Assembly (NCBI GenBank): GCA_016865015.1
Contig: CP018226.1
Location: 3,813,001 to 3,877,000, forward strand
Direction of reading: 5' to 3'
Length of the DNA: 64,000 nt
Source of the DNA: Rhizobiales bacterium IMCC20636
GTDB lineage: Bacteria > Pseudomonadota > Alphaproteobacteria > Rhizobiales > GCA-2746425
The position numbers and the translations under genes were made by a program. Each line of letters starts with the position of its first letter. Position 1 is the first letter of the stretch. This document shows positions 44,051 to 57,112 of this stretch, piece by piece. Under the pieces are notes generated by a model. That model saw nothing but the letters and a program-made list of their open reading frames with translations, was not told where the DNA came from and did no database searches.

Positions 44051-45584
44051 GTTCGACCACGCTTGGAGTGGCTGGCGTTTCAAGACGCTGAAAATCACCG
44101 GTCATGGCCAGACCAATGTCTTCGACATTGGTCATTCGGGTTTTGACTGATGGCGACAGGCGCCCGCGAAACATGACATGCAGACGGTCGCTGATTTCAA
44201 ACAGTTCTTCCAGCTCCTCGGACACAACCAGAATAGCAACGCCTTCGTCACGCAAATCAATCAGCTTCTGGCGAATGGCTGCCGCAGCGCCCACATCCAC
44301 ACCCCAGGTTGGCTGCGAGACAATCAGGACTTCAGGCCGCAGAGCAATCTCACGGCCAACAATGAATTTCTGCAGATTGCCGCCGGACAGGCTTTGCGCA
44401 GCTGAATTGGGCCCGCCGCACCGCACATCGAAGGCCTCAATCGTCTCGGACGAAAACCGCTTCATACCAGCGAGATCCAGAAAGCCGAATTTGGCCAGTC
44501 CCGATCCAAAGCCGGTGAGCAGACTGTTTTCACTGAGATCATGCTCGGGCACAGCCCCACGGCCCAACCGTTCTTCGGGCACAAAATGCAGGCCAAGCGC
44601 ACGACGGTCTGTTGGTCCGCTCGACCCCAATTCGGTGCCGTTCAGGCAAATGCAGGCAGCTTGCGCGTCCGGCAGAATTGTCTCGCCTGACAACAGACCC
44701 ACCAGGGAGTTCTGGCCGTTTCCTGACACGCCTGCAATGCCCAGAATTTCCCCCGCATGCAGGTTGAGGGAGACATTTTCGAGGGGCGTTGCGAACAGAT
44801 CCTCCGGCGCATAATTCAGCTTTGAGACGGTCAGACGAACCTTGCCCTGTTCCGGGCTGCCACGATTTTCCGCATGTGGCAGATCGCGGCCGATCATCAT
44901 GCGGGCCAAAGACTTGCTGGTTTCCTCACGCGGCACCGTTGTTCCGGTCACCTTGCCATGGCGCAGCACAGTGGCCACGTCGCAGAGTTCGCGGATTTCA
45001 TCGAGCTTGTGGGAAATGAACAGAATCCCGATGCCTTCGCTGGCCAGTTTCTTCAGGGTCCGGAAGAGATCACTCACGCCCTGTGGTGGCAGAACGGAGG
45101 TTGGCTCATCCATGATGATAAGCTTGGGTTCCTGCAACATGCAGCGCAGAATTTCAACGCGCTGACGCTCTCCGACAGACAGGGATTGTACCCGCATATC
45201 CGGCTCGACATTCAGGCCGAACCGCTTGCTCGCCGCTGTAATGCGCGGCGTGATGCTTTTCACCGATCCCTTCATGGCCAGCGCAATGTTTTCAGCCACG
45301 GTGAGTGTGTCGAACAGGGAAAAATGCTGGAACACCATGCCGATACCCAGCGCCCGTGCATGGGCCGGGTTCCTGATCCGGGTTTCCGTACCCAACCATT
45401 CCAAGGTGCCTGCATCCGGCGCCGTTACGCCGTAGATGATCTTCATCAATGTTGACTTGCCTGCGCCATTTTCGCCCAGAACCGCATGAATTTCGCCGGG
45501 CATGACAGTCAGGTCGATTGCATCATTAGCGACCACTGCCGGGTAGATCTTGGAAATGCCTGTGAGCTTCAGCAGCGCGGTCAT
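44043..45584 (-). CDS. BMP-type ABC transporter ATP-binding protein, two domains
   Basis: A 513-residue two-domain ATPase. Domain 1 has Walker A GENGAGKSTLMKIIYG, signature LSVGERQRVEIL and Walker B MDEPTSVLPPQG, the PPQ form being typical of nucleoside-type BMP transporters. Domain 2 has GVSGNGQNSLVGLLSG in place of a canonical Walker A, LSGGNLQKFIVGREI and SQPTWGVDVGAAAAI. The TWGVD in place of TRGVD is shared by this subfamily. The start overlaps the GST gene stop by four bases. Confidence 0.9.
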   Translation of the reverse strand: MTALLKLTGISKIYPAVVANDAIDLTVMPGEIHAVLGENGAGKSTLMKIIYGVTAPDAGTLEWLGTETRIRNPAHARALGIGMVFQHFSLFDTLTVAENIALAMKGSVKSITPRITAASKRFGLNVEPDMRVQSLSVGERQRVEILRCMLQEPKLIIMDEPTSVLPPQGVSDLFRTLKKLASEGIGILFISHKLDEIRELCDVATVLRHGKVTGTTVPREETSKSLARMMIGRDLPHAENRGSPEQGKVRLTVSKLNYAPEDLFATPLENVSLNLHAGEILGIAGVSGNGQNSLVGLLSGETILPDAQAACICLNGTELGSSGPTDRRALGLHFVPEERLGRGAVPEHDLSENSLLTGFGSGLAKFGFLDLAGMKRFSSETIEAFDVRCGGPNSAAQSLSGGNLQKFIVGREIALRPEVLIVSQPTWGVDVGAAAAIRQKLIDLRDEGVAILVVSEELEELFEISDRLHVMFRGRLSPSVKTRMTNVEDIGLAMTGDFQRLETPATPSVVEHA

Positions 45585-46237
45585 GCATCCGCCTCGTCGC
45601 GCATATCATGCAGGCGGTGAATGCCGGGCATTTCAATGAAACCGGGCAAGCGCCGGATGGCTACCAGCCATTTGCGGATCGCCGGATAATCATCATGGTC
45701 GATGCCGCCATCCGGCGACAGAGCCGTATAGGGAAAACAGGCAATGTCGGCGATGGTCGGATTGGACCCGGTCAGGAAATTGTCTCCACGAAACCCCTGC
45801 TCGGTGAGATGGGCTTCCAGTTCGCGCAGAACCATGTGTGCGTTGGTGCGGGCTTTCTCGATGTTCAATGGGCGGCCCAGCATGTCGTGCAGCCTGGCTG
45901 CGCCAGCCGTATCTGTCAGACGCCCGGCAAAAGCGAGCCATTGCAGAATACGGCCTGTCACGCCTGGATCACGGGTTGGAAACCATGTATCCGTGGGATC
46001 AAATTTTTGCGCGAGATAGGCGAGAATGGCCTGACTGTCACACAAGGTCAGATCACCATCGACGAGAACCGGCAGGGTTCCCGCCGGATTGATTGCCAGA
46101 AAATCAGGTTTCTTGTGCTCACCGCCCGGATGAAAATCAATCGCAACGGGCTGGTAGTCGACACCCAACAGCGCCATCAGAAGCCGTGCCTTGTAGGCAC
46201 TGCCGGACAGAATATAATCGTAAAGCTGCAACCCCAT
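45581..46237 (-). CDS. Glutathione S-transferase-like protein, possible NdmE-type partner
   Basis: A 218-residue GST-fold protein. The N-terminal thioredoxin-like domain has LYDYILSGSAYKARLLMALL, the cis-Pro segment PAGTLPVLVDGDLTLCDSQAILAYLA, and the helical C-terminal domain begins near residue 90 with the conserved NPTIADIACFPY (N-capping) motif. Its start codon overlaps the stop of the oxygenase gene (TGATG) and its stop overlaps the ABC ATPase start. NdmE, a GST-like protein, is required for N7-demethylation by NdmC/NdmD in caffeine-degrading Pseudomonas; a similar structural role here is inference. A conventional glutathione-dependent role is the alternative. Confidence 0.88.
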   Translation of the reverse strand: MGLQLYDYILSGSAYKARLLMALLGVDYQPVAIDFHPGGEHKKPDFLAINPAGTLPVLVDGDLTLCDSQAILAYLAQKFDPTDTWFPTRDPGVTGRILQWLAFAGRLTDTAGAARLHDMLGRPLNIEKARTNAHMVLRELEAHLTEQGFRGDNFLTGSNPTIADIACFPYTALSPDGGIDHDDYPAIRKWLVAIRRLPGFIEMPGIHRLHDMRDEADA

Positions 46238-47088
46238 CAGCGTGCCACCAATTGCGCGCCATAGGTCATGCCCTTGCGTTTCAGCCAACGGCGATATGCC
46301 ACTGATGTTGTGTCGGCGCGGGTGGGGATTTCCATTTTGGGATCGAGCGGCAACAGACGCGGGATCTGGTTTTCCAATATGGAGCGATCCTGCAGAAAGA
46401 TCATTTGCTGAAACTGCACGAGATCGGTCTGGTTGCTGTCTTCATCATAAAGCGCCATCCAGGCATAGGCATCACACAATTCCTCAGAAATGGGCCGCAC
46501 AAACAATCCGATTACATCCCATGCACCCGGACGAGGTGGACTGGTTTTGTAGAGGATCGATACACAGGGTGCCGGCACCCGATACATGTAGTCGGTCATC
46601 TGTCCTTCCTCGGCGGATTTGGCCGCCTGGGGCTGGAAGAACCGCACCTTGGTGGCCCAGACCTCATCAACCGTATCGCGGATTTCAACCTTGTAAGGCT
46701 CAACCTCGGTGTGCGGCTCGGCACCCAGAATATCGGTGTGGACGAAGGGGAAATGCGCAATGTCGAGAAAGTTCTCCACCACCCGCAATGGCGAGGCTTT
46801 TACCCGTACCGGCCCGCAATCCACCATGCGCCGGCCCTCTTCAGCGGCTTCCGGAATGTCGAACAACGCGTGTTCGGGTCGGCCTATGGAGGACCAGACA
46901 TGGCCGTAGCGAAGGGTGAGCGGACACTCGCTTCCGTCTGCTGCGGTCACCTTGATCTGGTCATCGGCTGCGCGCAGGATCGTCAGTGTCTCTCCCATCA
47001 GGACAACTGTTTCAGGCTGTCCCTCAATGAGCAGATTTTCAATTGCAACCGGATACCAATCATTGCGCGCGACATCAGAGATCGTCAT
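46237..47088 (-). CDS. Rieske-oxygenase catalytic subunit lacking the [2Fe-2S] ligands
   Basis: A 283-residue protein of the NdmA/VanA-like Rieske oxygenase class. The catalytic domain is intact: N106-F-L-D109-I-A-H112-F-P-F-V-H117 supplies the bridging Asp and two His iron ligands, and D234 in LQDRSILENQ is the candidate third ligand; the C terminus ADTTSVAYRRWL is also typical. The N-terminal part still reads like a Rieske fold (RNDWYPVA, LMGETLTILRA) but the CxH...CxxH cluster ligands are gone. The cluster is supplied, presumably, by the neighbouring Rieske protein, whose stop overlaps this start by four bases. Substrate inferred to be a methylated purine. Confidence 0.87.
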   Translation of the reverse strand: MTISDVARNDWYPVAIENLLIEGQPETVVLMGETLTILRAADDQIKVTAADGSECPLTLRYGHVWSSIGRPEHALFDIPEAAEEGRRMVDCGPVRVKASPLRVVENFLDIAHFPFVHTDILGAEPHTEVEPYKVEIRDTVDEVWATKVRFFQPQAAKSAEEGQMTDYMYRVPAPCVSILYKTSPPRPGAWDVIGLFVRPISEELCDAYAWMALYDEDSNQTDLVQFQQMIFLQDRSILENQIPRLLPLDPKMEIPTRADTTSVAYRRWLKRKGMTYGAQLVAR

Positions 47089-47858
47089 GGCCGCATCTCC
47101 CCTGCGCTGGCATCCCATGAATTGACCATTGTGCCCATATTTTCAGCAGACCATCGAAAGCGCTCTGCCCAGCGCGACAGGGAAATTCGCAAATCGACCG
47201 GCAAATCCGGGTTTGTCTGAATATGCAGCATTGTTTTTCCGGGCGTGACTTTCTGGAAATGTATCATCAATTGCAGACTGGCCGCTTCAGTTGTCGATTC
47301 AAGCACAAGACTGGTCTGGTTTTCCGCAATGATCGACGCTTCTGCAGGCGCAGTTTCACCTGCGCCGGAAAGCGGAATGCAAGTTTCTGCCAACAGCTTT
47401 CGCAAGTCCGCTTCATCCCTGTTGACTGACAGGCTACGCAGGCCCTGCCCGCCAAATGTTGGCAGATCAGGTGGATTGTCGGCGTTTTGCGATATCCAAA
47501 TGACGCCATCATACTCCCGGCAAAGATAGGTGTTGGCACCAATGGATGCGGGCGGCGTCATGTCCGGATGCGCAGGAATATGACGGCAGGCGCCATCTTC
47601 ACCATATTGCCAGCCATGATAGATGCAGGACAGACGCTCGCCTCTGACAAAGCCGAAGGACAGGCGCATGCCGCGATGGGGGCAGCGATTGTCAAAGGCG
47701 CTGACCTGGCCGGACCGGGAGCGCCAGACAACCAGATCCAGCGGCTGCGTCGCGTCGATCTGCGCGCGCATGACACCGGCAACCGGCAGGTCGGCCGACA
47801 GCACGACCGGAACCCAACCGTCAGACCCTTGATCGTTTTCCGTAAGCCCGGCGTTCAT
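47085..47858 (-). CDS. Rieske [2Fe-2S] protein, partner of the catalytic subunit
   Basis: A 257-residue protein whose N-terminal half is a Rieske domain with all four ligands: Cys59-x-His61 (CPHRGM) and Cys78-x2-His81 (CIYHGWQYG), followed by CRHIPAHPD as in aromatic-ring-hydroxylating oxygenases. The C-terminal 120 residues (SLQLMIHFQKVTPGKTMLHI) resemble the beta-sheet of an oxygenase catalytic domain but have no DxxHxxxxH iron site. No flavin or NAD domain is present, so a separate reductase is needed. The ATG at 47858 is used; TTG at 47879 is possible. It is first in the coupled oxygenase-GST-transporter genes. Confidence 0.88.
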   Translation of the reverse strand: MNAGLTENDQGSDGWVPVVLSADLPVAGVMRAQIDATQPLDLVVWRSRSGQVSAFDNRCPHRGMRLSFGFVRGERLSCIYHGWQYGEDGACRHIPAHPDMTPPASIGANTYLCREYDGVIWISQNADNPPDLPTFGGQGLRSLSVNRDEADLRKLLAETCIPLSGAGETAPAEASIIAENQTSLVLESTTEAASLQLMIHFQKVTPGKTMLHIQTNPDLPVDLRISLSRWAERFRWSAENMGTMVNSWDASAGEMRP

Positions 47859-47920
47859 CAGTTTAAGCAACCCATACAATGCCCCGGCGAGAATCCAGGC
47901 TTCAAATCAATGACGGAAAA

Positions 47921-47984: not shown

Positions 47985-48305
47985 TCAATCCGCCTGTGTC
48001 AGGATTTTGAACCCGTTTGGCATAGGACCATCAGAATCGTGTGGACAACGTACAACCGTTTCAACCCATACGGTTATGGGTCCGAGACTACACCCAAGTT
48101 CCATGGCATCGAGCAGCTCTTCCGGACCACTGGCCAGAGCCTCTATGAACCCACCAGCCGCATTTTTACGGACCCAGCCATTGAGCCCAAGACGGTTTGC
48201 GCGATGGCATATCCAGTCAAGGAAATCAGGATCGCTGACATCGCCTGAAAATCTGAACAGTTCGGTTTGTCGGTTCATCATGAGAGGCTGAGTATCTCTG
48301 ATCAT
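47985..48305 (-). CDS. Acylphosphatase-like small protein
   Basis: A protein of 106 residues (or 98 from the ATG at 48281). The segment RANRLGLNGWVRKNAAGGFIEALASGP matches the core of acylphosphatases, including the conserved Gly-Trp-Val-Arg and the Asn that follows. The usual N-terminal substrate loop (GRVQGVGFR) is replaced by SGDVSDPDFLDW, so the catalytic Arg is missing and activity is doubtful. The ATG at 48305 overlaps the RpiR stop, suggesting co-translation with the regulator. Confidence 0.65.
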   Translation of the reverse strand: MIRDTQPLMMNRQTELFRFSGDVSDPDFLDWICHRANRLGLNGWVRKNAAGGFIEALASGPEELLDAMELGCSLGPITVWVETVVRCPHDSDGPMPNGFKILTQAD

Positions 48306-49207
48306 TTGAATTTGCGAAACAGGCGGGTGCTGTCAAACAGGGTTTCCAGATCCTGCATGCGCTGTTCTGTTGTATCCCATAATGTTTTCTGAATGTCAGC
48401 GATCATGGTTTCAATCAGAACCAGCAACGCTGCATTGGAATCCCATGCCGAGGGCACCTCAATGCGGCTGGTAAAGGTCAGATTTGCATGTTGCGCGATG
48501 GGCGAGCGCCACTGGTCGGTCAACAGGATGATGCTGACACCCCGCTCTTTCGCGGTTTCCGCAAGCTTGAGCAGATCATTCTGATAACGACGGACATCGA
48601 GCATGACGAGCACATCCTGCGGCTTCATGTCCATGGCATAATGCGGCCATGCGGCATCGCTGGAGGGTATCAGTGTTGTGCCGGAGCGGATCATCTGCAG
48701 ATGCAGGAACAGATATTCTGCCAGCGTATGCGTGATGCGGCCACCGGCAATGAACACTGCGCTGTCGCGATTGGCCAGCATCCGGCAGGCACTGTCAAAG
48801 GCATCGGGATCGATCTGGGAAAAGGTCTGCCGCAAATTCTGCAGGATTGCGTCAGCAAAGCGATTGAGGATGTGAGTGTCGGGAACCTCAGCGGACCAGC
48901 GCTCATGCTTTTCCAGCGGATTTGAAATCTTGGCTTCCAACTCGTCGCGCAAGGCTGCCTGAAAGGCTGGAAAGCCGGAAAAACCAAGCTTTTGAATCAT
49001 GCGGGCAACTGTCGGTGTGGAGACAGCTGCATTCTCAGCAACCTTGGTGATGCTGGAGAGGCCTGATACCGGCCAGTTTTCCATCAGTTGAACCGCCAAT
49101 TGGCGTTCGGCCCGTGTCAGATCATCAAATCCGCTTTGCAAACGCTCATAGACCGTGGTGACATGATTTTCAGGATCGGGGACTTTCACGTCGAATTCTC
49201 CAAGCAT
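48302..49207 (-). CDS. MurR/RpiR-family transcriptional regulator
   Basis: A 301-residue regulator. The N-terminal HTH_6 domain (LTRAERQLAVQLMENWPVSGLSSITKVAENAAVSTPTVARMIQKLGFSGF region, about 28-78) is followed by a SIS domain (about 125-260; DSAVFIAGGRITHTLAEYLFLHL, PQDVLVMLDVRRYQNDLLKLAE). SIS domains usually bind phosphosugars. It is upstream of, and in the same direction as, the oxygenase operon and divergent from the formylglutamate amidohydrolase/TRAP genes, so it may control either or both. Confidence 0.9.
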   Translation of the reverse strand: MLGEFDVKVPDPENHVTTVYERLQSGFDDLTRAERQLAVQLMENWPVSGLSSITKVAENAAVSTPTVARMIQKLGFSGFPAFQAALRDELEAKISNPLEKHERWSAEVPDTHILNRFADAILQNLRQTFSQIDPDAFDSACRMLANRDSAVFIAGGRITHTLAEYLFLHLQMIRSGTTLIPSSDAAWPHYAMDMKPQDVLVMLDVRRYQNDLLKLAETAKERGVSIILLTDQWRSPIAQHANLTFTSRIEVPSAWDSNAALLVLIETMIADIQKTLWDTTEQRMQDLETLFDSTRLFRKFK

Positions 49208-49273
49208 GGCCGGATGCTGTTTCTGACCCAGTCAATGGCCTGTTCAAAACTTGCATCCAATTTAGAAAAGATA

Positions 49274-49300
49274 TTGACAGTTTAATCCAGTCTGTACAAT
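49274..49300 (+). promoter_or_regulatory. Possible sigma-70 promoter for the TRAP/gamma-glutamyl operon
   Basis: TTGACA at 49274-49279 and TACAAT at 49295-49300, with a 15-base spacer that is two short of ideal, upstream of the plus-strand gene starting at 49346. Both hexamers are near consensus; the short spacing lowers confidence. Confidence 0.4.
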
Positions 49301-49345
49301 CCTCTTCAAAATGGCCGTCTTTGAAACCGTGCAACAGGAATTGCC

Positions 49346-50155
49346 TTGCAGTCCACACACACCCTCTTCGATGCAGCAGATGGTCCGGCATTTCAAACCA
49401 TCAACGCCAACGGTGCAAGCGACATTGTGCTGGTGTGCGAACATGCCAGCAACATTATTCCATCCGCTCTGGATGGGTTGGGCCTGACAGAAGCTGCCTT
49501 GCAAAGCCATGCGGCCTGGGACCCGGGGGCCGAAGCCGTTGCGCTGTTGCTGTCGCAATCTCTCGATGCGGTACTGATCTCTGCCGGGTTTTCCCGTCTG
49601 GTTTATGATCTCAACCGTCCGCCCGAGCACCCGGACGCGATGCGTGCAGTTAGCGAGATTTACGAGGTTCCGGGCAATGCAAACCTGTCCCCGCAGGACA
49701 GAAGTGCCCGCACCGACGGTCTCTACAAGCCGTTTCATGACGAAATCGACAGGGTTCTGGATCGCTATCAGGCAGAAAATCGCACGCCGGTGCTTGTCAC
49801 AATTCATACATTCACGCCGGTCTATCTTGGCCAGAAACGTGCAGTGGAGATTGGCGTCCTGCATGATACGACCGATACCCGGCTCGCCGATCAGATTTTG
49901 GACGCGGCACAAACCATCACCGATTTTGTCACCCTTCGGAATGAGCCATACGGGCCGGAAGATGGCGTGGCCCATTCACTTCAAATGCATGCGTTGCCAC
50001 GCGGCATCTTGAATGTGATGCTTGAAATCCGAAACGATCTGGTCACAACTGCAGAACAGCAGATCAAGGTGGCGCAGATTATCGAAAGCCTATTGCTTTG
50101 CGCGATAGCGAAAGCGCCGACCCAAAATCCGGCCTCAGCAGGAGCACAAGCGTAG
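49346..50155 (+). CDS. N-formylglutamate amidohydrolase family protein
   Basis: A 269-residue zinc-dependent amidohydrolase-like protein of the FGase family. Conserved features: IVLVCEHASNIIP, HAAWDPGAEAVALLLSQSL, SRLVYDLNRPPEHPDAM, VTIHTFTPVY and a C-terminal LEIRNDLV. FGases release glutamate from N-formylglutamate. It starts at TTG 49346 with AGGAA upstream; no ATG is suitable. It precedes a TRAP transporter and, further on, a gamma-glutamylating synthetase, so hydrolysis of a gamma-glutamyl conjugate is an attractive but unproven function. Confidence 0.87.
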   Translation: MQSTHTLFDAADGPAFQTINANGASDIVLVCEHASNIIPSALDGLGLTEAALQSHAAWDPGAEAVALLLSQSLDAVLISAGFSRLVYDLNRPPEHPDAMRAVSEIYEVPGNANLSPQDRSARTDGLYKPFHDEIDRVLDRYQAENRTPVLVTIHTFTPVYLGQKRAVEIGVLHDTTDTRLADQILDAAQTITDFVTLRNEPYGPEDGVAHSLQMHALPRGILNVMLEIRNDLVTTAEQQIKVAQIIESLLLCAIAKAPTQNPASAGAQA

Positions 50156-50158
50156 CCC

Positions 50159-50665
50159 ATGCCGCAATCGATCAAACTCCTTGTCCGATACATTGATGCG
50201 TTCAACTATCGCATTGGCCGGTTTGCGATGTATCTGCTGTTTGTCATGATGGGCATCTTGCTGTGGTCCTCATTTTCAAAGACGTTTCTGCTGCCTTCTT
50301 TGTGGACGCTGGAAATGGCGCAGTTCACGCTGACTGCCTATTACATTCTGGGCGGCGCCTATTCGATGCAGATGGGCGAGCATGTGCGCATGGATCTGTT
50401 TTACGGATCATGGTCGGAGCGCACCAAGGCGTGGGTCGATGCCTTCACCATCTGCTTCCTGATCTTTTATCTGGGGATCCTGCTGTATGGCGGTTACGAG
50501 AGCACCAGTTATGCGTTGCAATATGGCGAGCGCAGCCCGACCGCCTGGCGGCCCTATATGTCACCGATCAAGATCATCATGTGCTTCGGTATTCTTCTGA
50601 TGCTGCTTCAGGCCATTTCGAGCTTCTTCAAGGACGTCGCAAAACTGCGCGGCGAGGAGATCTAG
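50159..50665 (+). CDS. TRAP transporter small permease (DctQ type)
   Basis: A 168-residue inner-membrane protein with four hydrophobic segments (IGRFAMYLLFVMMGILLW, LEMAQFTLTAYYILGGAYS, AFTICFLIFYLGILLYGG, IIMCFGILLMLLQAI). The WTLEMAQF and GEHVRMDLFYG positions are typical of DctQ. It starts three bases after the amidohydrolase stop and abuts the large permease gene. Confidence 0.88.
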   Translation: MPQSIKLLVRYIDAFNYRIGRFAMYLLFVMMGILLWSSFSKTFLLPSLWTLEMAQFTLTAYYILGGAYSMQMGEHVRMDLFYGSWSERTKAWVDAFTICFLIFYLGILLYGGYESTSYALQYGERSPTAWRPYMSPIKIIMCFGILLMLLQAISSFFKDVAKLRGEEI

Positions 50666-51988
50666 ATGTCCTATGAAGTAATCGCCATGATCATGTTTGC
50701 CTGCATGATGCTGATGATGATGACGGGGCAGCGCATCTTTGCGGCCATCGGCTTTGTGGCCGTTATCGTGGCGCTGCCCTTGTGGGGCACCGGCGGGTTC
50801 AACATTGCGTTTTCAGCCTCCATGAAGCTTATGAAATGGTATCCGCTGCTGACACTGCCGCTGTTTATCTTCATGGGCTATGTGCTGTCGGAATCCCGCC
50901 TGGCGGATGATCTGTACAAGATGTTTCATGTCTGGATGGGACCGCTGAATGGCGGTCTGGCGATTGGCACCATTTTGCTGATGGTGCTGATTTCCGCAAT
51001 GAACGGCCTGTCAGTGGCCGGAATGGCCATCGGGGCAACGATTGCCCTGCCGGAGTTGCTGAAGCGGGGTTACGACAAGCAGATGGTGACGGGGGTCATC
51101 CAGGCAGGCTCCTCGCTTGGCATTCTGGTGCCGCCCTCGGTCGTGCTTGTGCTCTATGCCATGATTGCGCGGCAACCGGTTGGGCAATTGTGGCTGGCGG
51201 GCGTGTTCCCCGGCCTGATGATGGCCACACTGTTCATTTTGTATGTCGTGATCCGCTGCAAGTTTCAGCCACATCTGGGGCCTGCGCTCACCGATGATGA
51301 ACGCAATGTGCCGATGTCGGAAAAGCTGCGTCTGTTGCGCGCGGGCGCACTGCCCTTCATCATTTTTGCCGCCATGATGGTGCCGTTTCTGAATGGCTGG
51401 ACCAGCCTTGTAGAAAGCTCTGCCATTGGCGCGCTGACGGCAGTGATTGCCGCTGTGCTGAAGGGGCGTTTCACACGCGAAGTGTTTGAAAATTCGACCC
51501 GGAAGACCCTGGCGATTTCCTGCATGTTCATGTGGATCATTCTGGCAGCGCTGTGCTTTGGTGCCGTATTTGACGGGCTGGGCGCGGTGAAGGCGATTGA
51601 AGGCTTCTTTGTCGGACGGCTGGGTCTCAGCCCCTGGGAAATCCTGATCCTGATGCAATTGTCCTATCTGATCCTGGGCACGTTTCTGGATGATACGGCG
51701 ATGCTGGTGATTGTCGCGCCGCTCTATGTGCCCTTGGTAAAGATGCTTGGATTTGATCTGATCTGGTATGGAATTCTGTACACCATCACCTGTCAAATCG
51801 CTTACATGACACCGCCTTTCGGCTACAATCTGTTCCTGATGCGTGCGATGGCGCCGAAGGAGGTGACTCTGAAAGACATCTATATTTCCATCATTCCGTT
51901 TGTATTTGTTATGCTGATTGGTCTGGCCCTCGTGACCGCCTTTCCGCAGATCGCCCTTTGGCTTCCCGAATATGTGTATGGCAAATAG
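50666..51988 (+). CDS. TRAP transporter large permease (DctM type)
   Basis: A 440-residue membrane protein with about 12 hydrophobic segments. DctM features include PLLTLPLFIFMGYVLSESRLADDLY, MNGLSVAGMAIGATIALPELLKRGYDK, QAGSSLGILVPPSVVLVLYAMI and GTFLDDTAMLVIVAPLYVPLV. It forms the ion-driven channel together with DctQ. The binding-protein gene follows 64 bases later, an order (Q, M, P) found in many alphaproteobacteria. Confidence 0.9.
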   Translation: MSYEVIAMIMFACMMLMMMTGQRIFAAIGFVAVIVALPLWGTGGFNIAFSASMKLMKWYPLLTLPLFIFMGYVLSESRLADDLYKMFHVWMGPLNGGLAIGTILLMVLISAMNGLSVAGMAIGATIALPELLKRGYDKQMVTGVIQAGSSLGILVPPSVVLVLYAMIARQPVGQLWLAGVFPGLMMATLFILYVVIRCKFQPHLGPALTDDERNVPMSEKLRLLRAGALPFIIFAAMMVPFLNGWTSLVESSAIGALTAVIAAVLKGRFTREVFENSTRKTLAISCMFMWIILAALCFGAVFDGLGAVKAIEGFFVGRLGLSPWEILILMQLSYLILGTFLDDTAMLVIVAPLYVPLVKMLGFDLIWYGILYTITCQIAYMTPPFGYNLFLMRAMAPKEVTLKDIYISIIPFVFVMLIGLALVTAFPQIALWLPEYVYGK

Positions 51989-52052
51989 CCGACACATCGG
52001 TAGGCGAAACCTGACCCGGTATGATCCGCGGTCGTAAACTGAGGAGAATGAG

Positions 52053-53108
52053 ATGACAAAGAATACCAACAGGCGAGATTTTCTGAAGAAAGCCGGTGTG
52101 GTTGGTGTGGGCGCTGGTGCTGCTACTCTTGCAGCTCCTGCTGTTCATGGTCAGTCACCCATCAAATGGCGCTTGCAGACCTATGCCGGCGCAGCGCTGG
52201 GCGAGCACGTGATCAAGCCCGCGATTGATGATTTCAACAAGGCTGCCAATGGCGAGATGGAAATCGAGCTATATTATGCAGATCAGCTGGTGCCAACCGG
52301 TGAGCTGTTCCGTGCGGTTCAGAACGGTACGATTGATGCCGTTCAATCTGATGATGATTCCATGGCCTCGCCAACGGAAGTTACCGTGTTTGGCGGCTAC
52401 TTCCCGTTTGCGTCACGCTATTCTCTGGATGTGCCGGTCCTGTTCAACCAATGGGGCCTGGGCGATATCTGGGAAGCTGAATATGACAAGGTCGGCGTGA
52501 AATGGCTGTCTGCCGGATCCTGGGATCCATGCCACTTTGCTACAAAAGACCCGATCAACTCGCTGGAAGATCTGAAGGGCAAACGCGTCTTTACATTCCC
52601 GACAGCTGGTCGCTTCCTGACCCGCTTTGGTGTTGTGCCTGTCACACTGCCCTGGGAAGATATTGAAGTTGCGGTTCAGACCGGTGAGCTGGACGGCATT
52701 GCCTGGTCCGGCATTACCGAAGATTACACGGTTGGCTGGGCTGACGTGACCGACTACTTCCTGACCAACAATATTTCCGGCGCCTGGTGTGGCTCGTTCT
52801 TTGCCAATATGGACCGCTGGAACGAGTTGCCGGAGCATCTGAAAACCCTGTTCAAACTGGCGATGGATTCCTCACATTATTATCGTCAGCATTGGTACTG
52901 GGGCGGAGAAGCGAAACTGCGTGTCGATGGCACGAAGATGAAGCTGACCAGCATTCCCGATGCGGAATGGGCAACTGTTGAAGCTGAAGCACGCGTTTTC
53001 TGGGATGAGATTGCCCAGGAGAGCGAGTTGAAAGCCAAGATCGTTCAGATCCTGAAAGACTACAATGCTGCCATGGACAAGGCCGGACGGCCTTACCGCT
53101 ACAGCTAA
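52053..53108 (+). CDS. TRAP transporter substrate-binding protein (DctP type), Tat signal
   Basis: A 351-residue binding protein. The N terminus NRRDFLKKAGVVGVGAGAATLA is a twin-arginine signal. The mature part contains the family's conserved Arg region (LKGKRVFTFPTAGRFLTRFG) and helix QTGELDGIAWSGITED. Several contacts (WDPCHFATK, GAWCGSFFANMDRWNELP) resemble the TakP-like group for keto acids, but ligand prediction is unsafe. A terminator follows, before the synthetase gene. Confidence 0.9.
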   Translation: MTKNTNRRDFLKKAGVVGVGAGAATLAAPAVHGQSPIKWRLQTYAGAALGEHVIKPAIDDFNKAANGEMEIELYYADQLVPTGELFRAVQNGTIDAVQSDDDSMASPTEVTVFGGYFPFASRYSLDVPVLFNQWGLGDIWEAEYDKVGVKWLSAGSWDPCHFATKDPINSLEDLKGKRVFTFPTAGRFLTRFGVVPVTLPWEDIEVAVQTGELDGIAWSGITEDYTVGWADVTDYFLTNNISGAWCGSFFANMDRWNELPEHLKTLFKLAMDSSHYYRQHWYWGGEAKLRVDGTKMKLTSIPDAEWATVEAEARVFWDEIAQESELKAKIVQILKDYNAAMDKAGRPYRYS

Positions 53109-53120
53109 CACCGAATAGAT

Positions 53121-53153
53121 GCGGCCCCGCCTGCCTTCAGTGAGCGGGGCCGC
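53121..53153 (+). terminator. Terminator after the TRAP binding-protein gene
   Basis: GCGGCCCCGC (53121-53130) pairs with GCGGGGCCGC (53144-53153); 10-bp GC stem, 13-base loop, followed by TTT. It may be partial, letting reduced transcription continue into the synthetase gene that starts at 53189. Confidence 0.75.
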
Positions 53154-53188
53154 TTTCCTGTAATGACCTTTTTGAATGGACCATTTTC

Positions 53189-54556
53189 ATGTCTGGGAAT
53201 TTGACTTTTGATGCGCTCAAGAAGGCCTTTGCGGCTGGAGAGATTGATACAGTTCTGGCTGTTCAGGTGGACATGCAGGGACGGTTGATGGGCAAACGGT
53301 TCCACGCTTCCAATTTTATTGAGAGCGCCCATACTGAAACCCATTCCTGCAATTATCTGATTGCCACCGATTTCGAAATGGAAGCGGTTGAGGGCTATAA
53401 ATCCACCTCCTGGGCATCCGGCTATGGCGACTATGTGATGCGCCCCGACATGTCGACGCTGCGCCACATTCCCTGGCTTGAAGGCACCGCCATGGTGATG
53501 TGTGATGTAGAAGATCATCACAGCCACAAGGACGTGCCACATGGCCCGCGCGCCGTTCTGAAAAAGCAGTTGGCGCGCCTGGAAGCCATGGGCATGAAGG
53601 CGATGATGGCCTCTGAACTGGAGTTTTTCCTGTTCCATGAAAGCTATCACGAAGCCCATCAGAGCGGCTATCGCGGTATCAACCTGATCGGGCCGTATAA
53701 TGAAGATTACCACATCTTCCAGACCACCAAGGAAGAGGATGTGATGCGGGCGATCCGCAACGGGCTCTATGGTGCCGGTATACCGGTTGAATGTTCCAAG
53801 GGGGAAGCCTCCGCCGGTCAGGAAGAAATCAATGTCAAATATGCCGACGCGCTGATTGCGGCGGATAATCATGTGATTGTCAAAAATGGCTGCAAGGAAA
53901 TTGCCTGGTCGAAAGGCAAGGCGCTGACCTTCATGGCAAAGTGGGACAATGACTCTGCCGGCTCATCGTCACATGTGCATCAATCGCTGTGGAGCACAGA
54001 CGGCAAGCCGCTGTTTCTCGATGAAAGCGCCGAACATGGCATGTCAAAGCTGATGCGGCATTATGTGGCCGGTCTGTTGGCCCATGCCAGTGCCACGACC
54101 TATTTCCTGGCCCCCAACATCAACTCCTACAAGCGCTTCGTGGCCGGAACCTTTGCGCCCACCAAGGCGATCTGGAGCCCGGACAACAGGACAGCGGGCT
54201 ATCGCCTGTGTGCAGAAAAAACCAAGGGCATTCGCATCGAGTGCCGGGTTGGCGGGTCGGATCTCAATCCGCATCTGGCATTTGCGGCCCAACTGGCTGC
54301 CGGGCTGGATGGAATCGAGAAGGAAATGGAACTGGAACCGGCTTTTGTCGGCGATGCCTATGGCGGCGACGGCGTGCGGGAAATTCCCAAAACCCTGCGC
54401 GCAGCAGCCGAGGCGCTGGACAGTTCAGAAATGTTGCGCGGCGCTATGGGCGATGATGTGGTTGATCACTATGTACACGCCGCGCGCTGGGAACAGGACG
54501 TTTTTGACACTCGCGTGACCGACTGGGAAGTCTCTCGCGGATTTGAACGCTCTTAG
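53189..54556 (+). CDS. Glutamine synthetase-like gamma-glutamyl-amine ligase (PuuA/GlnA3-4 type)
   Basis: A 455-residue protein of the glutamine synthetase superfamily. The beta-grasp N-terminal part carries VLAVQVDMQGRLMGKRF; the catalytic domain has ASELEFFLFHES (metal Glu pair), GEASAGQEEINVKYADALIAADNH, GSSSHVHQSLWS, NSYKRFVAGTFAPTKAIWSPDNRTAG (ammonia/ATP loop) and RIECRVGGSDLNPHLA. These catabolic synthetases join glutamate to an amine, giving a gamma-glutamyl amide. Aldehyde and alcohol dehydrogenase genes follow, which suits stepwise oxidation of a conjugated amino alcohol or polyamine. True nitrogen-assimilating GS function is unlikely. Confidence 0.9.
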   Translation: MSGNLTFDALKKAFAAGEIDTVLAVQVDMQGRLMGKRFHASNFIESAHTETHSCNYLIATDFEMEAVEGYKSTSWASGYGDYVMRPDMSTLRHIPWLEGTAMVMCDVEDHHSHKDVPHGPRAVLKKQLARLEAMGMKAMMASELEFFLFHESYHEAHQSGYRGINLIGPYNEDYHIFQTTKEEDVMRAIRNGLYGAGIPVECSKGEASAGQEEINVKYADALIAADNHVIVKNGCKEIAWSKGKALTFMAKWDNDSAGSSSHVHQSLWSTDGKPLFLDESAEHGMSKLMRHYVAGLLAHASATTYFLAPNINSYKRFVAGTFAPTKAIWSPDNRTAGYRLCAEKTKGIRIECRVGGSDLNPHLAFAAQLAAGLDGIEKEMELEPAFVGDAYGGDGVREIPKTLRAAAEALDSSEMLRGAMGDDVVDHYVHAARWEQDVFDTRVTDWEVSRGFERS

Positions 54557-54578
54557 AGCATTTTTAGGAATAGATTTG

Positions 54579-55961
54579 ATGACAACGCTCACCTGCACAT
54601 CCCCGATCGATGGCAGTGTTTTCGCAACGCGTGAGACACACAGTTTTGCCGAGGTGCAAACCATGCTGGCTTCTGCCAGGACGGCCCAGAAAGACTGGGC
54701 CAATCGCAGCATCAATGAGCGCAGCGCGCTTGTGCTGAAAGCCATTGATGTGCTGGCTGCCATGAATGATGACGTCACCATCGAGATTGCCCACATGATG
54801 GGCCGTCCGGTGCGCTATGGCGGCGAAATTGGCGGCGTGCGCGACCGCGCCGGTTACATGGCGACCATTGCCGAAGATGCTCTGGCACCGACCATCATCG
54901 AGGACAGTGATGCGTTTCACCGCTTTATTGCGCGCGAGCCGGTGGGCGTCGTGTTTGTGGTTGCGCCCTGGAACTATCCCTATCTGACAGCGGTCAATTC
55001 CATTGCCCCTGCCCTGATTGCCGGCAATGCGGTGATGCTGAAACATGCAACACAGACAATTCTGGCCGGTGAGCGCTTTGCAACGGCCTTGCAGGAAGCG
55101 GGTCTGCCGGAGGGGCTGTTCACCAATCTGTTTCTCAGCCATGGCGATACCAGCGCATTGATTGCGGCGAAAAGCTTTGACTTCATCAATTTCACCGGCT
55201 CGGTGAATGGTGGCCGCGAAATGGAAAAAGCCGCTGCTGGCACCTTTACCGGCATGGGGCTGGAGCTTGGTGGCAAGGACCCGGGCTATGTGCGGGCAGA
55301 TGCTGATCTGGATGCCGCCGTTGACACCTTGATGGATGGTGCGATGTTCAATTCGGGCCAGTGCTGCTGCGGCATCGAGCGCATCTATGTGCATGAGAGC
55401 CTGTTTGATGCCTTTGTCGAAAAGGCCAAGGCGCTGGTGGAGAGCTACAAGCTGGGCAATCCGCTGGATGCGGACACCACGCTTGGCCCGATGGCGCATC
55501 TGCGCTTTGCCAATGAAGTGCGTGCGCAGATCAGCGAAGCTGTTGCGGCGGGTGCCAAAGCCCTGATCGACCCGGCCCTGTTTCCGCAGGACACCGGTGA
55601 TACCGCCTATCTTGCACCGCAGATTCTGGTGAATGTCGACCATTCCATGCGCGTCATGCGCGATGAAAGCTTTGGGCCTGTTGTCGGCATCATGAAAGTC
55701 AGCTCCGACGCCGAAGCCATCGAGCTGATGAATGATTCCGTGTTCGGTCTGACCGCCTCGATCTGGACAGCAGATGCGGCAGTTGCGCAGGAGATTGGCC
55801 GCGCCATCGATACCGGCACGATTTTCATGAATCGCTGTGATTATCTCGACCCGGCGCTGTGCTGGACCGGCTGCAAGGAAACCGGACGCGGCGCATCCCT
55901 CTCCGCGCTTGGCTATCAGAGCGTTACCAGACCCAAATCCTACCACTTGAAGAAGGCCTGA
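54579..55961 (+). CDS. Aldehyde dehydrogenase family protein
   Basis: A 460-residue NAD(P)-dependent aldehyde dehydrogenase. Visible residues include the oxyanion Asn in VVAPWNYPYLTAVN, the general-base Glu in GLELGGKDPGYV, the catalytic Cys in FNSGQCCCGIERIY and the late ESFGPVVGIMK motif. I chose the ATG at 54579 with AGGAA upstream. It lies 22 bases after the synthetase gene. Similar to succinate-semialdehyde/GabD-like or PuuC-type enzymes; the expected substrate is a gamma-glutamyl aminoaldehyde. Confidence 0.9.
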   Translation: MTTLTCTSPIDGSVFATRETHSFAEVQTMLASARTAQKDWANRSINERSALVLKAIDVLAAMNDDVTIEIAHMMGRPVRYGGEIGGVRDRAGYMATIAEDALAPTIIEDSDAFHRFIAREPVGVVFVVAPWNYPYLTAVNSIAPALIAGNAVMLKHATQTILAGERFATALQEAGLPEGLFTNLFLSHGDTSALIAAKSFDFINFTGSVNGGREMEKAAAGTFTGMGLELGGKDPGYVRADADLDAAVDTLMDGAMFNSGQCCCGIERIYVHESLFDAFVEKAKALVESYKLGNPLDADTTLGPMAHLRFANEVRAQISEAVAAGAKALIDPALFPQDTGDTAYLAPQILVNVDHSMRVMRDESFGPVVGIMKVSSDAEAIELMNDSVFGLTASIWTADAAVAQEIGRAIDTGTIFMNRCDYLDPALCWTGCKETGRGASLSALGYQSVTRPKSYHLKKA

Positions 55962-55966
55962 CCATC

Positions 55967-57112
55967 ATGGTTCCAACTGCAAACTGGAGCTACCCGACCG
56001 CCATTCGTTTTGGTGCCGGGCGCATTTCCGAACTCGCTGACGCCTGTGCGGCCACGGGCATCAAGAAGCCCCTTCTGGTGACGGACAAGGGACTGGCCAG
56101 CCTGCCGATCACGTCTGCCACGCTGGACATTCTGGAGCAGGCGGGCCTTGGCCGTGGCCTTTTCAGCGAGGTTGATCCAAACCCGAATGAGCAGAACCTG
56201 GCCGATGGCGTAAAAGCCTTCAAGGCTGGCGGCCATGATGGTGTGATTGCCTTTGGCGGCGGCTCCGGCCTCGACCTTGGCAAGCTGATTGCGCTGATGG
56301 CCGACCAGACCCTATCGGTCTGGGATCTGGAAGATGTCGGCGACTGGTGGAAACGCGCCGATGGCGATGCGATTCATCCGATCATTGCGGTGCCGACCAC
56401 GGCTGGTACCGGCTCGGAGGTTGGCCGCGCGGGCGTTCTGACCAATTCAGACACCCATGTGAAGAAGATCATCTTTCACCCCAAAATACTGCCGTCCATC
56501 GTCATCTGCGATCCGGAACTGACGGTCGGCATGCCGAAAATGATCACTGCCGGCACCGGCATGGATGCTTTTGCCCATTGTCTGGAAGCCTATTGCTCGC
56601 CGCATTACCACCCCATGTCACAGGGCATTGCGCTGGAAGGCATGAAGCTGGTGAAGGACAATCTGCTGCGCGCCTATAGGGACGGCACCGATCTGGAAGC
56701 ACGCGCCCACATGATGAGCGCCGGGGCCATGGGCGCCACCGCGTTTCAAAAGGGTCTTGGCGCAATCCATGCCCTGTCGCACCCGATTGGCGCGATCTTT
56801 CACACCCATCACGGCACCACCAATGCGGTGGTCATGCAGCCGGTGCTGAATTTCAACCGCCCCGCCATTGAAGAGCGCCTCGGCCACGCCGCCGCTTATC
56901 TCGGCATCGGCACCAGTTTTGACAGTTTTTACGCCTATGTCGGAGAGCTGAACGCAGCGCTGGCCATCCCGGCCAACCTGACTGCGCTGGGTGTGGAAAA
57001 CCCCGATCTGGACCATCTGACAGCAGAAGCGCTGAAAGACCCGAGCGTGGGCGGCAATCCGGTTGCAATGACTGCGGAAAATACGCGGGCATTGTTTGAG
57101 GCGTGTTTTTGA
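55967..57112 (+). CDS. Iron-containing alcohol dehydrogenase
   Basis: A 381-residue group III (iron-dependent) alcohol dehydrogenase. Features: the NAD-binding FGGGSGLDLGK near residue 98, TAGTGSEVGRAGVLTNSD, MDAFAHCLEAYCSPHYHPMS (metal Asp and His), HALSHPIGAIFHTHHGTTNAVVMQP (further metal His). The ATG at 55967 is five bases past the aldehyde dehydrogenase stop; a longer frame inside that gene was rejected. With the aldehyde dehydrogenase it would take an alcohol to the carboxylate. It ends 25 bases before the convergent ABC operon. Confidence 0.9.
   Translation: MVPTANWSYPTAIRFGAGRISELADACAATGIKKPLLVTDKGLASLPITSATLDILEQAGLGRGLFSEVDPNPNEQNLADGVKAFKAGGHDGVIAFGGGSGLDLGKLIALMADQTLSVWDLEDVGDWWKRADGDAIHPIIAVPTTAGTGSEVGRAGVLTNSDTHVKKIIFHPKILPSIVICDPELTVGMPKMITAGTGMDAFAHCLEAYCSPHYHPMSQGIALEGMKLVKDNLLRAYRDGTDLEARAHMMSAGAMGATAFQKGLGAIHALSHPIGAIFHTHHGTTNAVVMQPVLNFNRPAIEERLGHAAAYLGIGTSFDSFYAYVGELNAALAIPANLTALGVENPDLDHLTAEALKDPSVGGNPVAMTAENTRALFEACF

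Follow-up and report, generated by a model that had tools for sequence, protein, structure and literature searches.

A 64,000-nucleotide stretch of the Rhizobiales bacterium IMCC20636 genome (contig CP018226.1, positions 3,813,001–3,877,000; hereafter the window) carries a seven-gene cluster that is very probably an ethanolamine (Eto) γ-glutamylation operon, through which ethanolamine would be imported and converted to glycine via glutamate. All seven genes lie on the plus strand at 49346–57112, separated by intergenic gaps of 0–80 bases, and encode proteins above the Pfam cut-offs in the order FGase, DctQ, DctM, DctP, Gln-synt_C, Aldedh and Fe-ADH, the three Dct proteins forming a tripartite ATP-independent periplasmic (TRAP) transporter. 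An earlier note, made from the sequence alone, had described this gene content, order and place, which Pfam confirms; its range omitted the divergent RpiR gene. In window coordinates, the features are as follows.

48302–49207, minus strand: RpiR-family regulator (HTH_6 and SIS; Pfam), divergent from the operon, in the place that MED193_10021 (RpiR) has in the published counterpart introduced below
49208–49345, no strand: divergent intergenic control region, with a 19-mer at 49270–49288
49346–50155, plus strand: FGase-family amidohydrolase, putative γ-glutamylglycine amidohydrolase (GGAH), TTG start (PF05013, 135.5 bits; 2odf match)
50159–50665, plus strand: TRAP small permease DctQ (EtoV; PF04290)
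50666–51988, plus strand: TRAP large permease DctM (EtoW; PF06808)
52053–53108, plus strand: TRAP solute-binding protein DctP (EtoX; PF03480), with a twin-arginine translocation (TAT) signal, predicted by orthology to bind ethanolamine (Csal_0678 match)
53189–54556, plus strand: ligase resembling glutamine synthetase (GS), putative ethanolamine γ-glutamylase (ETAGA; PF00120; 5dm3 and 11zs matches)
54579–55961, plus strand: aldehyde dehydrogenase (GAADDH; PF00171, 386 bits); the open reading frame (ORF) opens with TTG at 54543, and the ATG at 54579 is likelier from start context
55967–57112, plus strand: iron-containing alcohol dehydrogenase (GETADH; PF00465, PF25137); the ORF opens with GTG at 55859, and the ATG at 55967 is likelier from start context

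In the proposed pathway, the TRAP transporter EtoVWX would import ethanolamine, which the GS-like ligase would join to the γ-carboxyl group of glutamate with ATP, yielding γ-glutamylethanolamide. The iron alcohol dehydrogenase would oxidize the alcohol to an aldehyde and the aldehyde dehydrogenase would convert the latter to γ-glutamylglycine, from which the FGase-family metal amidohydrolase would release glycine and glutamate, the glutamate being reused. Control of the operon presumably lies with the RpiR protein. Every step is a prediction for this genome, and the reactions of the two dehydrogenases and the FGase are predicted activities.

Substrate assignment by the binding protein and the ligase

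The substrate narrows to ethanolamine because the binding protein is orthologous to Csal_0678 of Chromohalobacter salexigens and because the operon as a whole matches one published for Phaeobacter sp. MED193 (MED193_10021–10056: RpiR, GGAH, EtoV, EtoW, EtoX, ETAGA, GAADDH and GETADH; PMC10132767). In MED193, EtoX has a dissociation constant of 7.9 µM for ethanolamine and does not bind phosphocholine, phosphorylethanolamine or glycerol phosphates; the levels of five proteins, GGAH, EtoX, ETAGA, GAADDH and GETADH, are higher on phosphorylethanolamine, and that of EtoX is also raised when phosphorus is lacking. DctP matches Csal_0678 (4uab, 4xf5) at E 5.3e-175, with the next solved match at 1.3e-15, and the two proteins are ~78% identical. 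Csal_0678 binds ethanolamine and lacks the arginine by which TRAP binding proteins usually hold a carboxylate (PMC4646407). In the window's DctP this position, located by motif and by alignment to 4pet, is occupied by Phe180, which is invariant across all 20 aligned EtoX proteins. Orthology to Csal_0678 and the missing carboxylate arginine, two of the traits by which an Eto operon is recognized, are both found in this protein. The structure model of EtoX is poor (predicted local distance difference test, pLDDT, 57), so its fold matches serve for entry titles and identity only and not as evidence of fold.

The ligase belongs with two solved chains, 5dm3 (E 9.1e-186) and 11zs (E 3.2e-181), the remaining solved matches being at 1.2e-57 or weaker. 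It falls under the NCBIfam cut-offs for GlnA, type III GS and γ-glutamylputrescine synthetase. An ammonia-using GlnA was ruled out at 268.6 bits against a TIGR00653 cut-off of 429.15 bits, and the DGSS stretch of the genome's GlnA-like protein (L104), which we take to be the ammonium site, is absent from the window's ligase. The cycle put forward in the earlier note (import, γ-glutamyl conjugation, two oxidations and hydrolysis releasing glutamate) is thus well supported by the operon match and the Csal_0678 orthology. Among the amines that it named, ethanolamine is the likely substrate on the same grounds, and putrescine is disfavored by the ligase score discussed below.

A search of the genome for EutB (PF06751) returned no match while recovering the E. 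coli control, and the Eut ethanolamine ammonia-lyase route was rejected on that basis. The organism is probably one of those bacteria able to use ethanolamine, a major head group of phospholipids, by a route other than the Eut ammonia-lyase.

Conservation of the locus

Locus architecture was surveyed in the nearest 80 of 591 EtoX relatives, a sample biased toward close kin because only the nearest were retained; 56 of the 80 have at least 4.5 kb on either side of DctP. Half of these well-flanked loci (28/56) keep the exact order RpiR (minus strand), FGase, DctQ, DctM, DctP, GS, aldehyde dehydrogenase and Fe-alcohol dehydrogenase, with the largest gap between neighboring matches no more than 562 bases, so the order is not due to chance. 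One of the 28, L081, bears a different GS subfamily (31% identity). GS is present at 42 of the 56 loci, together with FGase at 33, a class-I amidotransferase at three and neither at six; at the 14 loci where GS is absent, FGase is found at six and neither hydrolase at eight.

The linkage also holds when viewed from the hydrolase. Each of the 19 best FGase relatives that were fetched (the window's own excluded) is accompanied by one or more operon partners within ~1.5 kb, and at eight loci (L004, L009, L093, L094, L112, L114, L117 and L120) FGase directly abuts GS with no TRAP genes between them.

The FGase-family amidohydrolase

The sole solved-chain match of the amidohydrolase at E ≤ 1 is Atu2144 (2odf; E 1.8e-78), on which its confident structure model (pLDDT 95) superposes at 0.8 Å. 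Beyond 2odf and 2q7s, the fold matches of the model are weak (for example aspartoacylase and carboxypeptidase A, E ~1e-3), which suggests a metallo-amidohydrolase fold and nothing more. In a tree of 77 FGases (L005, which reads N in places, was left out of the tree and the structure alignment), the window's protein clusters with same-genus FGases, and Atu2144 falls inside a large operon-type group. The two HutG-like rows, which sit on very long branches, lie well apart from the window's FGase, and the deep fork of the tree is poorly supported. Seven residues (H33, R84, D88, N90, R91, H154 and E227) are common to the window's FGase and both HutG-like proteins and, judged from the alignment, may form the metal and catalytic site. 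The role of a γ-glutamylglycine hydrolase has good indirect support from gene linkage and from the replacement of the hydrolase in related clusters, described next.

Probable replacement of the ligase and the hydrolase

Twelve genomes were examined in which the EtoX locus lacks GS, FGase or both (11 genomes) or the aldehyde and Fe-alcohol dehydrogenases (one, L025). Each of the 12 contains GS of at least one of two types. The window's type occurs in G063, G064, G066, G067 and G070 (61–76% identity), that of G067 lying at L025's own locus. The second type, ~30–34% identical to the window's ligase, occurs in the other seven (G061, G062, G065, G068, G069, G071 and G072) at 65–75% identity to the copy at L066; the G065 copy is truncated at the edge of its contig, and G064 holds both types. 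FGase accompanies the second type as well, at L081, L114, L117 and L120. The second subfamily also adjoins the same kinds of aldehyde and Fe-alcohol dehydrogenases, as seen at L066 (11312–12679), L077 (225–1724) and L126–L131.

The clusters of Thalassospira (L066, L073) and Grimontia (L077) have no FGase and, next to the Fe-alcohol dehydrogenase, a class-I amidotransferase. Across loci L002–L125, a search with two queries at E ≤ 1e-6, which a more diverged amidotransferase could escape, found such proteins only at L066, L073, L077 and L118, and none of them occurs with FGase. Five genomes whose EtoX locus lacks both GS and FGase were followed up (other such loci are L075, L085 and L099). In four of them, Nitrincola, Motiliproteus and two Hahella, a separate cluster of second-type GS, aldehyde dehydrogenase and Fe-alcohol dehydrogenase bears an amidotransferase. 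The fifth, Pseudorhodobacter (G070), has a cluster of the window's GS type with both dehydrogenases, and no hydrolase was found within the 12 kb fetched.

The amidotransferases are of two types, ~27% identical to each other and both matching Pfam GATase. For the Grimontia type, the best solved relative is γ-glutamyl peptidase 1 (9k7i; E 1.9e-25), followed by GMP synthase at 2e-12; γ-glutamyl peptidase 1 also ranks first for the Thalassospira type (E 1.2e-12). The presence of a γ-glutamyl peptidase relative in the place of FGase supports the assignment of FGase as the γ-glutamylglycine hydrolase. It is probable that the hydrolase slot is interchangeable between metal-type FGase and cysteine-type class-I amidotransferases of unrelated folds, and that either GS subfamily can fill the ligase slot. 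No cluster examined has both FGase and an amidotransferase, and of the four possible ligase–hydrolase pairings, three were seen, all but that of an amidotransferase with GS of the window's type.

Alternative explanations

No observation directly contradicts the Eto assignment, although several weigh against it. GS is missing nearby at 14 and FGase at 17 of the 56 well-flanked loci, so the linkage is not universal. For the Thalassospira-type amidotransferase, the match to γ-glutamyl peptidase is little better than that to GMP synthase (1.2e-12 vs 6.2e-11). The C. salexigens enzymes are called "demonstrated" (with those of A. tumefaciens) in PMC10132767 and "predicted in silico" in PMC6529630. 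In addition, four metagenome-assembled genomes (MAGs; G073–G076) with EtoX–GS–aldehyde dehydrogenase–Fe-alcohol dehydrogenase clusters show no FGase at E ≤ 0.001, although MAGs may be incomplete. The complete clusters in these FGase-less MAGs are L038, L082, L092 and L095. A hydrolase for clusters with neither FGase nor an amidotransferase was sought among eight neighbor proteins from L038, L092, L095, L056 and L084, and none was found. Elsewhere in G073–G076 there are weak amidotransferase matches (E 1.7e-20 to 4.7e-5), which probably include one or more unrelated families; the four best, one per genome (L138, L143, L144 and L147), have no operon gene within the ~1.5 kb fetched.

Three other functions were weighed against ethanolamine γ-glutamylation. 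The main substrate of the same enzymes might be a different small amino alcohol, for instance alaninol (2-amino-1-propanol), which would pass through γ-glutamylalanine to alanine. The chemistry would be identical, and a second crystal entry of Csal_0678 exists (4xf5), reportedly with 2-amino-1-propanol as its ligand. This is improbable given that EtoX of MED193 binds ethanolamine, that the MED193 operon proteins increase on phosphorylethanolamine (PMC10132767) and that alaninol is rare in nature; alaninol may nonetheless be a side substrate. The amidohydrolase could instead be a conventional HutG (N-formylglutamate deformylase) with no part in the adjacent operon; it does belong to PF05013 (the FGase family) and keeps the seven residues listed above. 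That role was rejected as very unlikely, since the protein scores 23.6 bits against the HutG cut-off (TIGR02017) of 278.75 bits, is distant from the HutG-like rows in the tree and is linked to GS in many genomes. A true HutG is encoded elsewhere: the genome holds four PF05013 proteins, one of which (2006442–2007098) scores 372.3 bits as HutG and adjoins an ORF read as HutH. Least credible of all is a putrescine (Puu-type) pathway, of which a GS-like ligase and an aldehyde dehydrogenase are also part. PuuA was ruled out at 216.3 bits against an NF045547 cut-off of 650 bits; moreover, the operon includes an iron alcohol dehydrogenase, and Pfam assigns no protein among the eight, RpiR included, to an FAD amine-oxidase or amidotransferase family. 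Ethanolamine γ-glutamylation is thus the preferred reading.

Control region and flanking genes

Within the divergent intergenic region (49208–49345), a promoter and terminator scan gave no match, including none to sigma-70. The 19-mer at 49270–49288, between RpiR and FGase and inside a longer near-identical block, is a candidate operator or promoter. Among 147 loci, exact copies occur at four: L001, which is the window's own, and L002–L004. Of the four other genomes of the genus that were found, three thus keep it unchanged, and L005 has no exact match.

Beyond RpiR, a small acylphosphatase gene (PF00708; 47985–48305, minus strand) shares four bases with the end of the RpiR gene, and the two are probably transcribed together. 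A Rieske oxygenase (46237–47879, minus strand) is represented by two overlapping ORFs, the Rieske part at 47085–47879 and the VanA_C part at 46237–47118, possibly a split gene. A glutathione S-transferase (45581–46288) comes after them.

Comparison with known systems

Both the pathway, described earlier in marine bacteria, and the role of FGase have been proposed in print, so the finding is of a known system in a further organism. The earlier note had held that an FGase-family member acting as γ-glutamyl hydrolase would be new. Such a γ-glutamylglycine amidohydrolase was already proposed for C. salexigens and Streptomyces (PMC6529630; PMC9397018, Table 2), and the Phaeobacter gene at the FGase position is named accordingly (PMC10132767). 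A literature search combining FGase, glutamine synthetase, TRAP and ethanolamine gave no match. The hydrolase replacement seen in related clusters is a small addition to the known system.

The E. coli Puu pathway shares the logic of γ-glutamylation, oxidation and hydrolysis and differs in its oxidase and hydrolase, and the window's ligase is below the curated PuuA cut-off. The GlnA4 pathway of Streptomyces coelicolor (SCO1611–1615) has the same proposed chemistry, with a GS-like ligase, an aldehyde dehydrogenase and a γ-glutamylglycine hydrolase (PMC6529630, PMC9397018). It differs from the window in that the figure legend of PMC6529630 names a short-chain dehydrogenase, a glutamine amidotransferase and a putative ethanolamine transporter, the last not labeled as TRAP. 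Closer is C. salexigens, whose ethanolamine TRAP system includes Csal_0678 and whose pathway families, PF00120, PF00465, PF00171 and PF05013 (PMC9397018, Table 2), are also those of the window. The MED193 operon comes from another organism and shares with the window all eight gene kinds, their order and RpiR at the head, a likeness judged on gene kinds and order (PMC10132767).

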